64,000 bases of DNA from Agromyces sp. Marseille-P2726 (GTDB taxonomy: Bacteria > Actinomycetota > Actinomycetes > Actinomycetales > Microbacteriaceae), in NCBI RefSeq assembly GCF_902809835.1, contig NZ_CADDWM010000011.1, positions 186,001 through 250,000 on the forward strand, written 5' to 3'. A program made the translations under genes and the position numbers. Below the pieces are notes generated by a model. It ran no database searches, was not told the DNA's origin, and saw only the letters and a program-made list of their open reading frames with translations. Of this stretch, positions 1 through 61,245 are shown in pieces (the stretch's first letter is position 1; every line of letters starts with the position of its first letter).

Positions 1-1761
<1,761 letters not shown>

Positions 1762-1825
1762 CCCGCACGTGCTTCACCCCACGGGGTGCTCCACCCGCAC
1801 GGTGCTCCGCCCCGCACGTTGCTTT

Positions 1826-1893
1826 GTAGGACACACGGGGATTCGTAGGACGCGACGACGCCTGAGCGTCCTACGAATCCCCGCTCGTCCTAC
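1826..1893. repeat. Four-box palindromic repeat, left copy
   Basis: Two forward GTAGGAC boxes (1826, 1845) and two inverted GTCCTAC boxes (1868, 1887), spaced 19, 23 and 19 bp. The inner pair extends to a perfect 17-bp inverted repeat (1837-1853 with 1866-1882) around a 12-nt loop. The same box order and spacing recur at 2972-3039 on the other side of the DUF559 gene. It would fold as a nested hairpin and may end transcription of acs and the DUF559 gene, but its resemblance to the second copy suggests a mobile or recognition role. Confidence 0.9.
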
Positions 1894-1955
1894 ATGCCCG
1901 GGGCTGCGCGGTGCCGCGGCATCTGCACGCGGACACCCTCCGCCGCGGCATCCGT

Positions 1956-2825
1956 TCACCAGTTGTGACGACCCTGAGCGATGATGCTCAGCACGGCCGA
2001 CTCGATCATCGGCCACTCGTGAACCACCGCGTCACGACCGAATCGCAGCACGACGTATCCGCGGCGAACGAGGCGGGCGTCCTCGCGGAGATCCTTGTTG
2101 CGCTGCTTGCGCGAACGATGCGGCCCGAACCCATCGAACTGCAGCACGAGCCGCTCGCCCACCAGTCCGTCGACCCGGTGGCCGTCGACCACGACCTGCG
2201 GGATCATCGCGACGCCTCGCTGGGCGAGTCGCACCCGCGGAATCGATTCGATGCCGCTGTCTGCGAGCGGGTGCACGTGCTCGACGACGCGGAGCATCAC
2301 CGAGTCGGATGCCGCGAGCCCGCGCAGCTCGGGCATCGACGTGATTCCGCGACGCACAGCCGAGTCGAAGACGGCCACCGCCTGATCAAGGGGCTGACAC
2401 CGGGCGATCTGCCTGAGGATGCGCGGGAGGCCGTCGACGATGGGGCGAACACGCGGCTCGGTCGGGGCCGTCGGCGTCCGCGTCCAGTGCACGAGGAGCT
2501 TCCGTTCGTCGTGGGCGAAGGCGGCCAGTGGCGTTCGATCGATTCGCGGACAGTTCCGTGCAGCTGTGACGTGGATATCGGGTGGATCGACATCCCACAT
2601 CCCGAGAACCGCCGCTCCTGAAACGCAGGCGAGGGTCACGCCGGCATGGAGGGCACGCTCGACGAGCGGGTTGCACTCGGCACCGACGATCCAGTCGCGG
2701 CGCACGGACCTCACCGTTCCAGCATCGAGTGCAGCCCTGAGATGTTTCGGCGCGACACCGGCGTCTCGCAGCGTGCGTCGGTGAGCAGCGTTGAGCGTGC
2801 CCAGAGTGGTTTCGATCGATGCCAC
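1956..2825 (-). CDS. DUF559 (Vsr-like) protein with AbiEi-like N-terminus
   Basis: About 289 residues. The N-terminal ~60 residues (RRTLRDAGVAPKHLRAALDAG...RRDWIV) resemble the winged-helix antitoxin-like domain found on many actinobacterial DUF559 proteins. The C-terminal ~100 residues match the Vsr/PD-(D/E)xK fold of DUF559, with D219 (RVDG) and a FDGFGPH...RNKDLREDARLVRRGYVVLRF block. The motif normally reading I-E-x-DG has Gln at residue 229 instead of Glu, so nuclease activity is doubtful. I chose the GTG at 2825. An ATG at 3005 extends the frame but lies inside the right-hand repeat, so it is less likely. No clear ribosome-binding site precedes either. Role unknown; the flanking matched repeats are its main oddity. 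Confidence 0.8.
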   Translation of the reverse strand: MASIETTLGTLNAAHRRTLRDAGVAPKHLRAALDAGTVRSVRRDWIVGAECNPLVERALHAGVTLACVSGAAVLGMWDVDPPDIHVTAARNCPRIDRTPLAAFAHDERKLLVHWTRTPTAPTEPRVRPIVDGLPRILRQIARCQPLDQAVAVFDSAVRRGITSMPELRGLAASDSVMLRVVEHVHPLADSGIESIPRVRLAQRGVAMIPQVVVDGHRVDGLVGERLVLQFDGFGPHRSRKQRNKDLREDARLVRRGYVVLRFGRDAVVHEWPMIESAVLSIIAQGRHNW

Positions 2826-2971
2826 GATTCCAGTCTTCGCGCCGGCATCGGCGCTCGTGGCGAATCCGGCCGACCGGTGAGCTGGTTGAGGTGCTCGCAC
2901 CCTGTGGAGGGCGAGAGGCACGGACTCCGCGCACGTCCCGGCAACCTCGGAGAGCGCAGGAAACTTCGTAT

Positions 2972-3039
2972 GTAGGACAAACGCCTGCTTGGAGGACGCC
3001 CACATCCCTGATCGTCCTACGAAGACCGAAACGTCCTAC
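2972..3039. repeat. Four-box palindromic repeat, right copy
   Basis: Boxes GTAGGAC (2972), GGAGGAC (2991, degenerate), GTCCTAC (3014) and GTCCTAC (3033). Spacing 19, 23, 19 bp is identical to the copy at 1826-1893, although the spacer sequences differ. Both inverted boxes continue as ...CTACGAA, as in the left copy. It sits between ridA and the start of the DUF559 gene. Confidence 0.88.
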
Positions 3040-3064
3040 GAACCCGACGTGGCAGGCCGTGGCG

Positions 3065-3084
3065 CCGGGGCTGCGCCGCCCCGG
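3065..3084. terminator. GC-rich hairpin beyond ridA
   Basis: CCGGGGC (3065-3071) pairs with GCCCCGG (3078-3084) around a 6-nt loop, 18 bp past the ridA stop in its direction of transcription. There is no T tract, so this is a weak candidate terminator for the DUF4177-ridA pair. Confidence 0.3.
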
Positions 3085-3101
3085 GCAGCGGCGACCTGCG
3101 C

Positions 3102-3572
3102 CTACGCGAACTCGACGACGAGCTCGACCTCGACCGGCGCGTCGAGCGGCAGCACCGCCACGCCGACCGCCGATCGCGCGTGTCGACCGGCCTCGCCGAA
3201 GATCTCGCCGAGCAGTTCGGACGCGCCGTTGACGACGCCCGGCTGCCCGGTGAACGACGGGTCGGATGCCACGAACCCGACGAGCTTCACGATGCGCCGG
3301 ACCCGATCGAGCGATCCGAGCTCGGCGCGCACCGCGGCGAGCCCGTTCAGCACGCAGGCCCGCGCGTACTCCTTGGCGTCGTCGGCCGGAACGAGCCCGT
3401 GTCCGTCGCCGACCTTGCCCGTGGCGGGCAGGGCGCCCGCGATGAACGGGAGCTGGCCCGACGTGTAGACGTACGAGCCCGTGACGAGGGCGGGCACGTA
3501 GGCCGCCACCGGCGGTGCGACCTCGGGAAGGTCGATGCCGAGCTCGGCGAGGCGGGCCTCGAAGCCCGCCAT
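3102..3572 (-). CDS. ridA: RidA/YjgF-family enamine/imine deaminase
   Basis: 156 residues, normal for the longer actinobacterial RidA group. RidA proteins are small trimeric cytoplasmic enzymes that hydrolyse reactive enamines and imines produced by PLP enzymes. The family pattern is visible: YTSGQLP near residue 37, A-V-R-A-E-L-G-S-L-D in the middle, and the C-terminal R-S-A-V-G-V-A-V-L-P-L-D-A-P-V-E-V-E-L-V block carrying the conserved Arg and Glu of the active site. The ATG overlaps the stop of the DUF4177 gene by one base, so the two are translationally coupled. This pairing is common in actinobacteria. Confidence 0.9.
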   Translation of the reverse strand: MAGFEARLAELGIDLPEVAPPVAAYVPALVTGSYVYTSGQLPFIAGALPATGKVGDGHGLVPADDAKEYARACVLNGLAAVRAELGSLDRVRRIVKLVGFVASDPSFTGQPGVVNGASELLGEIFGEAGRHARSAVGVAVLPLDAPVEVELVVEFA

Positions 3573-60204: not shown

Positions 60205-61245
60205 ATGGCTGCACTCGACCTCGCCTCCGTCGACATCAGCATCAACTTTCCCGCGTTCGCCCTCGACCGCGTACCCGCACTCGCACAGGCGGCAGAGCAT
60301 GCCGGCTTCCGCGCACTCCGGGTCGGCGACATGCAATCGACGCACCGAGAGTTGTACACGGCGCTGACCCTGATCGCTGCGAGCACGTCGCAGGTGCAGT
60401 TCGGACCAGGCGTCACGAATCCGGTGACGCGGCATCCCGCGGTCGCCGCCTCGGCGATGGCAACACTGCACGAGTTCTCGGGTGGTCGCGCGGTCTTCGG
60501 CGTCGGCACGGGTGACAGCGCCGTCCACAACCTGGGCGCGCAGCCGGCAACCATCACAGAGCTCGAAGAGTACATCCGTGCGATCCGCCTTCTGCATTCC
60601 ACGGGGCGCGCCGACTATCGGGGCAGCGCGCTCGTGCTCGAGTGGTGGTCTGGCGGCGCCATTCCCATCGTGGTTTCGGCGCACGGTCCACGTATGCTGC
60701 GACTGGCCGGTCGCGTGGCCGATGCCGTCGTCGTCGGGCTCGGGATGGGCGAGTCGGCTCGGGAGTACGCAGCCGAGCAGATCGCCGCAGGGGCGCGCGA
60801 GGTCGGCCGGGATCCAGCCGACATCGAGGTCTGGTACCTGTCCTACTTGAATCTCGCTCGGACGGCCGACGGCGCTGCTCGCGAGGTCGGCTCGGCGCTC
60901 GCGGTCGGGGGCAACCTCCTTGCGAGGTCGGCGGCAAGGACGATCATCCCCGGCGCCCTTCGATCGCGCTTCGCGGAACTGGCGAGTCGGTACTCGTACA
61001 TCCGCCACGCCAGCGGGAGCGCCGACAACCCGAATGCCCGGCTCATCGACGAGCTCGGCCTGCGCGAGCACCTCGCCGAGCAGTTCGGCGTGTTCGGCAC
61101 CTCCACCGACGTCCGCACCCGTCTCGAGTCGTTGAATGCAGCCGGGGTCTCACGGCTCTGGGGCGCCTACGTGCTTCCGGACCTCGGTGATTTCTTCGAC
61201 CGCTGGCGAGAAGGGGTCACGCAGCCTCGTGACGAAGTGGCGTGA
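60205..61245 (+). CDS. Luciferase-like (LLM) F420-type oxidoreductase, longer form
   Basis: 346 residues; barrel with A-E-H-A-G-F-R-A-L-R-V-G-D, V-Q-F-G-P-G-V-T-N-P-V-T-R-H-P, G-G-R-A-V-F-G-V-G-T-G-D-S-A and P-I-V-V-S-A-H-G-P, close to methylene-tetrahydromethanopterin reductase-like F420 enzymes. Divergent from the SnoaL-like gene. A second LLM enzyme in the island suggests two separate F420 or reduced-flavin steps. Confidence 0.88.
   Translation: MAALDLASVDISINFPAFALDRVPALAQAAEHAGFRALRVGDMQSTHRELYTALTLIAASTSQVQFGPGVTNPVTRHPAVAASAMATLHEFSGGRAVFGVGTGDSAVHNLGAQPATITELEEYIRAIRLLHSTGRADYRGSALVLEWWSGGAIPIVVSAHGPRMLRLAGRVADAVVVGLGMGESAREYAAEQIAAGAREVGRDPADIEVWYLSYLNLARTADGAAREVGSALAVGGNLLARSAARTIIPGALRSRFAELASRYSYIRHASGSADNPNARLIDELGLREHLAEQFGVFGTSTDVRTRLESLNAAGVSRLWGAYVLPDLGDFFDRWREGVTQPRDEVA

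Follow-up and report, generated by a model that had tools for sequence, protein, structure and literature searches.

REP and REPIN sequences are dispersed intergenic palindromes lying between convergent genes or genes of the same direction; in two papers on them (PMC3733652, PMC8049555), the RAYT gene is described as vertically inherited and flanked by its own repeats, which are more numerous where that gene is present. Proteins of the AbiEi type, according to another paper (PMC7319586), bind inverted repeats, up to four at once. No report of an association of DUF559 genes with palindromes was found in the full-text literature on DUF559, AbiEi, REP/REPIN-RAYT and EDxHD/Vsr homing endonucleases, as judged by titles and abstract openings and with most subscription papers outside the scope.

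The window analysed here is a stretch of 64,000 nucleotides from the soil bacterium Agromyces sp. Marseille-P2726. It contains a DUF559 gene bracketed by two four-box palindromic elements, and in related species this mark and the gene tend to change together, which suggests an unrecognised enzyme-and-repeat partnership. The features concerned are the following.

40..1761, plus strand: acs-like gene, left neighbour, which marks the gap in relatives
1826..1893, no strand: four-box palindromic element 1, GTAGGAC N12 GTAGGAC N16 GTCCTAC N12 GTCCTAC, box agreement 28/28
1826..1832, plus strand: element 1 box GTAGGAC
1845..1851, plus strand: element 1 box GTAGGAC
1868..1874, minus strand: element 1 box GTAGGAC (GTCCTAC on the plus strand)
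1887..1893, minus strand: element 1 box GTAGGAC (GTCCTAC on the plus strand)
1956..2825, minus strand: DUF559 gene (289 codons and a stop), its GTG start set at 2825 from orthologues
1959..2258, minus strand: Vsr/EDxHD-type nuclease domain, residues 190-289
2271..2825, minus strand: AbiEi-antitoxin-like body, residues 1-185, with a winged-helix-like part in residues 1-50
2972..3039, no strand: four-box palindromic element 2, upstream of the DUF559 gene, 146 bp from the start codon, box agreement 27/28
2972..2978, plus strand: element 2 box GTAGGAC
2991..2997, plus strand: element 2 degenerate box GGAGGAC
3014..3020, minus strand: element 2 box GTAGGAC
3033..3039, minus strand: element 2 box GTAGGAC
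3102..3572, minus strand: RidA/YjgF-family gene, right neighbour, which also marks the gap in relatives (Pfam YjgF_endoribonc, 3.2e-24)

Element 1 lies between the convergent 3′ ends of the DUF559 gene and of acs, which, judging from its sequence, probably encodes acetyl-CoA synthetase. Since comparison with orthologues sets the start of the DUF559 gene at 2825, element 2 is upstream of the gene and not within the open reading frame. The first-pass annotation had described two 68-bp elements with identical boxes at offsets 0, 19, 42 and 61; this is exact for all four boxes of element 1 and for three of the four in element 2, the second of which reads GGAGGAC. As it had also stated, the spacers of the two elements are unlike, and there is no other copy in the window, where a single stray box was seen at 60840. 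A three-box pattern was run against 100 dinucleotide-shuffled versions of the window and never matched. In the whole genome (3.56 Mb, 15 contigs), 9 elements were found at up to 3 mismatches against none with a reversed-pattern control, a non-random occurrence. Two of the nine flank the DUF559 gene; the other 7, all outside the window, are not adjacent to it. All 13 exact two-box matches fall inside the nine elements, which indicates that the unit being kept is the full four-box pattern, and alignment of the element halves extends the consensus to GGGTTTGTAGGACAT...TTTGTAGGACGC.

Some simpler origins were set aside. Spacers of these family-1 elements are 41-62% identical within genomes, too different for a recent duplication or a miniature transposon; they show no sign of recent copying, and the copies look old. 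A phage or plasmid origin was rejected, the only matches being a weak one to a phage and three Tsukamurella plasmids. An RNA element was ruled out by the absence of an Rfam match (E up to 1, positions 1700-3200) and by spacer pairing, which was generally not above that of shuffled sequence (p 0.10 in genome G333 and 0.16 in G000, G323 being the only one above, with p 0.001).

The gene was assigned to DUF559 by Pfam (21.5 bits, cut-off 20.6). Residues 1-185 of its product have the fold of AbiEi-type antitoxins (6y8q, Rv2827c), and the nuclease fold is closest to that of the EDxHD homing endonuclease I-Bth0305I. Residues E193, D219, D231, H236 and D245, presumably the catalytic-type residues of EDxHD/Vsr nucleases, are invariant or nearly so in 83 homologues. 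Fold and residues imply that the protein cuts, and the gene product is likely a DNA-cutting enzyme in which an AbiEi-like DNA-binding body is fused to a Vsr/EDxHD homing-endonuclease-like domain. It diverges faster than its neighbours, with 44-66% identity between relatives against 74-90% for the RidA and acs proteins. Pairs of proteins with the same box are more alike in the recognition helix, yet they are also closer relatives.

A DUF559 family member is present between acs and ridA in 9 genomes (G000, G300, G304, G308, G318, G321, G323, G326 and G333); it is split over two frames in G326 and lacks its middle in G321. Among 30 ridA loci that were opened, 4 had the gene, 20 had an acs-ridA gap of 72-107 bp and 6 had no visible acs, while six further acs-ridA loci comprised 5 with the gene and that of G325, in which a solo element is found and the gene is absent. 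No four-box element reached threshold in the 20 gene-free gaps. A terminator-like GGATGCC...GGCATCC hairpin is common to gene-free gaps (e.g. L172 and L176). Elements lie on both sides of the gene in 7 of the 9 orthologous loci (G000, G300, G318, G321, G323, G326 and G333), so that the paired arrangement first read in the window is kept around most orthologues; G304 and G308 have one weak, one-sided element each (25/28). The centre of the bracketing element is one base longer in G318, and bracketing boxes are partly degenerate in G326. Around the bracketing elements of G323 lie short repeats rich in GC (CTGCGCC, CTGCCGC; L087:1178-1310 and 2604-2800). In a box-agnostic scan, 15 of 34 hits on reversed sequence scored at least 25, as a mirrored four-box element still scores high; this control being invalid, bracketing rests on the flank-swap and control-gene tests given below.

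Dispersed copies were searched for with a profile built, on sequence only, from 13 elements and run on 60 Agromyces genomes, 16 of which gave matches. All nine genomes with the acs-ridA gene carry element matches, against 7 of the 51 others (Fisher p 7.7e-7, gene absence at unopened acs-ridA loci being judged from DUF559 hit scores), and the best nine DUF559 matches in the genus are all in element-bearing genomes. There are 24 full elements in G333, with nearly all boxes GTCGGAC, and 13 in G323, with GTAGGAC; G300 has GCATGAC plus older GTAGGAC forms, and the boxes of G318 and G321 are ACAGGAC or GCAGGAC. Elements without an acs-ridA gene are retained in G345, G079 and G325. The resulting catalogue of 88 entries covers elements in part for G321 (7 of about 25), G345 (7 of about 12) and G318 (3 of about 11); G304, G308 and G310 have profile matches and no entry. 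It includes L144:2100, a tandem-array register rather than a separate element, which is counted in the placement, box-comparison and near-perfect tallies. Some elements of G333 continue as tandem repeats of a 19-bp unit, made up of a box and a 12-bp spacer, whose spacers are almost identical (L144:2001-2140 and L063:1508-1600), and an additional four-box element with box GTCGGAG (27/28) was seen in G323 (L071:3442-3509). An Agromyces-type element is also present on L032 (NZ_JAGGPD010000051.1), a contig of 8.1 kb that bears the label Microbacterium sp. ISL-103 and the name of a Halomonas contig, and is possibly mislabelled or contaminating.

The box thus varies by species (GTAGGAC, GTCGGAC, GCATGAC, ACAGGAC), and flank comparison places many elements at orthologous positions across genomes. 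The lysC-asd site, read in 37 genomes, has GTAGGAC in G000 and G323, GTCGGAC in G333 and ACAGGAC/GCAGGAC in G318 and G321, with mixed or degenerate boxes in G300, G301, G341 and G345. The acs-ridA gene is absent on inspection in G341, and G301 and G345 have no close DUF559 hit; G300 is a counterexample, the gene being present and the element old and mixed. No clean empty site was found among the 37 genomes. Several species keep degenerate xCAGGAx boxes there, which marks the site as old and not newly inserted; lysC-asd is without an element in G079 and G325, which carry one beyond asd instead. In 6 of 7 genomes, no consensus matched the solo boxes better than that of the genome's own bracketing boxes, ties included. 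Only G326, with its split gene, departs from this, its bracket reading GTAGGCC and its solo boxes GTAGGAC. Near-perfect elements (27 or 28 of 28 box positions agreeing) make up 48 of the 57 catalogued in genomes with an intact gene (G000, G333, G323, G300 and G318) against 7 of 31 where the gene is lost or broken, sites and genomes sharing ancestry so that element and genome counts are not independent. G300, with an intact gene, contributes only 3 near-perfect elements of 7; G304 and G308, with an open gene, have about four and one profile matches, all too poor for the catalogue, and counting these as poor brings the intact-gene tally to about 48/62. Spacers vary within a genome and boxes shift together between species, including at orthologous sites, which upholds the earlier proposal of selection on the boxes rather than recent duplication. 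From this species-wide agreement, recognition of the box by the DUF559 protein is strongly implied.

Other DUF559 genes were found with palindromes of their own. A second one (family 2), GCGGATATACGATC followed by N38 and the complement, is dispersed in the genus with constant arms and a variable centre; there are about 31 copies in G344, 13 in G305 and 12 in G342, and the control reading gave 2 single hits. In seven genomes a DUF559 gene lies between two family-2 copies (G305, G307, G319, G340, G342 and G344, read directly in the locus DNA, and G312), and no bracketing pair was seen in copy-bearing G332, G341, G308, G310 and G326. The placement of 22 family-2 copies in two genomes was codirectional for 16, convergent for 4 and divergent for 2. 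The second DUF559 gene of the window genome (C12:298058-298936) is bracketed by a third palindrome, CGCATGAGAATCCG, with one flanking copy intact and the opposite one degenerate.

Bracketing was scored from 8-mers repeated on both sides of a gene and compared with mismatched flank pairs and control genes; a first k-mer statistic, swamped by GC-rich background, was replaced. A score of at least 6 was obtained for 27 of 69 genus DUF559 loci (the better hits, orthologues included, rather than a random draw; 1 of 70 had no usable gene call) against 4.5% of mismatched pairs of flanks and a single gene among 77 controls, which were taken from ridA and asd loci and cover few families. A score of 10 was reached by 18 of the 69, 0.9% of mismatched pairs and none of the 77. 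Without the family-1 orthologues and family 2, 58 loci remain, of which 19 pass at score 6 and 10 still do so at score 10. Order-wide, 7 of 24 DUF559 loci, in three families, scored at least 8 against 1 of 552 mismatched flank pairs (11/24 vs 12/552 at score 6, 2/24 vs 1/552 at score 10; 2 of 26 loci had no usable gene call, and one of the 24, L257, belongs to Agromyces and had a score of 0). Bracketing by a private box is common among DUF559 genes, also in other families of the order, and many bracketed genes have their own box or palindrome. In G352, a genome with ten DUF559 matches, a DUF559 gene is flanked by arrays of the box TCAGGCC: on one side it occurs six times directly and three times inverted, on a 19-bp period (L092:1192-1400), and on the other there are five exact copies (2572-2730).

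We think it probable, by analogy, that gene and palindromes work together as the two parts of one system, like that of REPINs and RAYTs but built on another enzyme. In the simplest account, each DUF559 protein of this kind would read its own box via the AbiEi-type winged helix, and the Vsr/EDxHD-type nuclease domain would act on the palindrome, with nicking or cutting as the likeliest action. One element pair brackets the gene; further copies, scattered between genes, would stay matched to it and constitute the partner population of the protein, as REPINs do for RAYTs. Copying of the palindromes by the protein might be envisaged by analogy. The likening of the locus to REP sequences around a RAYT gene, in which a Vsr-like nuclease takes the place of the transposase, gains support as an analogy from the two-sided arrangement in 7 of 9 loci, the second family, the genus-wide test and the structure.

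Alternatively, the protein could be an AbiEi-like autorepressor and the elements its operators, forming a regulon, with an incidental nuclease domain. AbiEi and Rv2827c are described as binding their own promoters at two or four inverted repeats of 23 bp (PMC7319586), element 2 is upstream of the gene, and a species-wide change of box is compatible with any DNA-binding protein; element 1, however, is downstream, between convergent genes. The catalogue (n=88) has 45 codirectional, 35 convergent and 5 divergent placements and 3 overlapping a called ORF, though divergent gaps are commoner than convergent ones in 243 kb of the same genomes (25 vs 17; binomial p 6e-11 by bases and 1e-9 by counts for 35 against 5, sites being shared between species and not independent). 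The dispersed family-1 copies therefore avoid divergent promoters. Their neighbouring genes have no common theme, as judged by eye without annotation, and the catalytic-type residues are conserved across the 83 homologues. A self-regulating operator pair alone, which the first-pass annotation had also offered, is insufficient, given an element on the downstream side and dispersed copies that avoid divergent promoters, and we consider operators with a regulon unlikely.

The palindrome-gene-palindrome unit might also be an inserted selfish gene, the solo palindromes being its homing targets, or scars of gene deletion by recombination between flanking copies. A nuclease fold nearest to a homing endonuclease, the 20 acs-ridA gaps without the gene and the solo element left there in G325 are in line with this. 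An open gene nevertheless coexists with up to 24 elements (G333), which would be cut, the gene is at the same locus in 9 of 9 carriers, and no family-1-bracketed gene was found at another locus among the matches listed, which makes homing quite improbable.

With dnaA as origin mark (contig starts, by eye, are not dnaA), all 24 elements of G333 lie within 58% of the origin-terminus distance (KS p 2.8e-4, 22 merged positions), and all 13 of G323 within 62% (p 0.03, 11 merged positions). That the elements are chromosome-organising sites through which the protein marks an origin-proximal domain is nonetheless very doubtful, as G079, G325 and G305 are not significant individually, elements are present in few species, and old sites, shared between genomes, may survive better in conserved origin-side regions.

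Returning to the gene and its palindromes as a two-part system, it is possible, though we put this forward tentatively, that actinobacterial DUF559/AbiEi-Vsr genes encode the enzymes of a large class of repeat systems so far unrecognised, each with a private palindrome code, a maintained chromosomal population and co-evolution of box and reader, providing a great many natural pairs. In this reading the nuclease itself may keep the boxes uniform, in a Vsr-like action, via biased short-patch repair. DUF559 proteins are common in Agromyces (hits in 55 of 60 genomes), and their role is not settled. If each gene owns a private palindrome, the target can be read from flanking DNA, making binding and cleavage tests simple. 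The REPIN/RAYT type of partnership would then have evolved a second time independently, which would offer a test of why bacterial genomes keep repeat populations. That dozens of dispersed boxes change in concert raises a further question, of selection at each site versus nuclease-driven repair, and natural reader-box pairs could supply material for new DNA-recognition modules.

Compared to known systems, the DUF559 protein shares a nuclease fold and catalytic-type residues with the EDxHD homing endonuclease I-Bth0305I and with Vsr, but differs from them by its AbiEi-type reader domain and its private palindromes; no intron or intein was seen around the gene. With the AbiEi antitoxins of type IV toxin-antitoxin systems it shares the fold of residues 1-185, and the recognition of multiple inverted repeats by AbiEi and Rv2827c (PMC7319586) is counted as a further likeness. 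It differs from them by the fused nuclease and by sites that flank the gene on either side and also occur scattered elsewhere, and no AbiEii nucleotidyltransferase toxin is found among its immediate neighbours (the acs-like gene and RidA). As in REP/RAYT systems, the gene is flanked by its own repeats, and the family-1 repeats are intergenic, mostly codirectional or convergent, and more numerous or better where the gene is present. In contrast to these systems, the enzyme, by Pfam and fold, is an AbiEi-Vsr nuclease and not an HUH/Y1 tyrosine transposase, and the repeat, present in about 10-30 copies, is built of four boxes of 7 bp that follow a 19-bp period while their spacers are free to vary. 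Neither is there an unpaired GTAG or CGTC tag beside a stem-loop in the Agromyces elements: the box lies inside the dyad, and starts with GTAG in G000 but with GTCG, GCAT or ACAG in relatives. The resemblance to the REPIN/RAYT partnership comes from an inherited enzyme gene with a private repeat population, the enzyme being unrelated and the repeat different.
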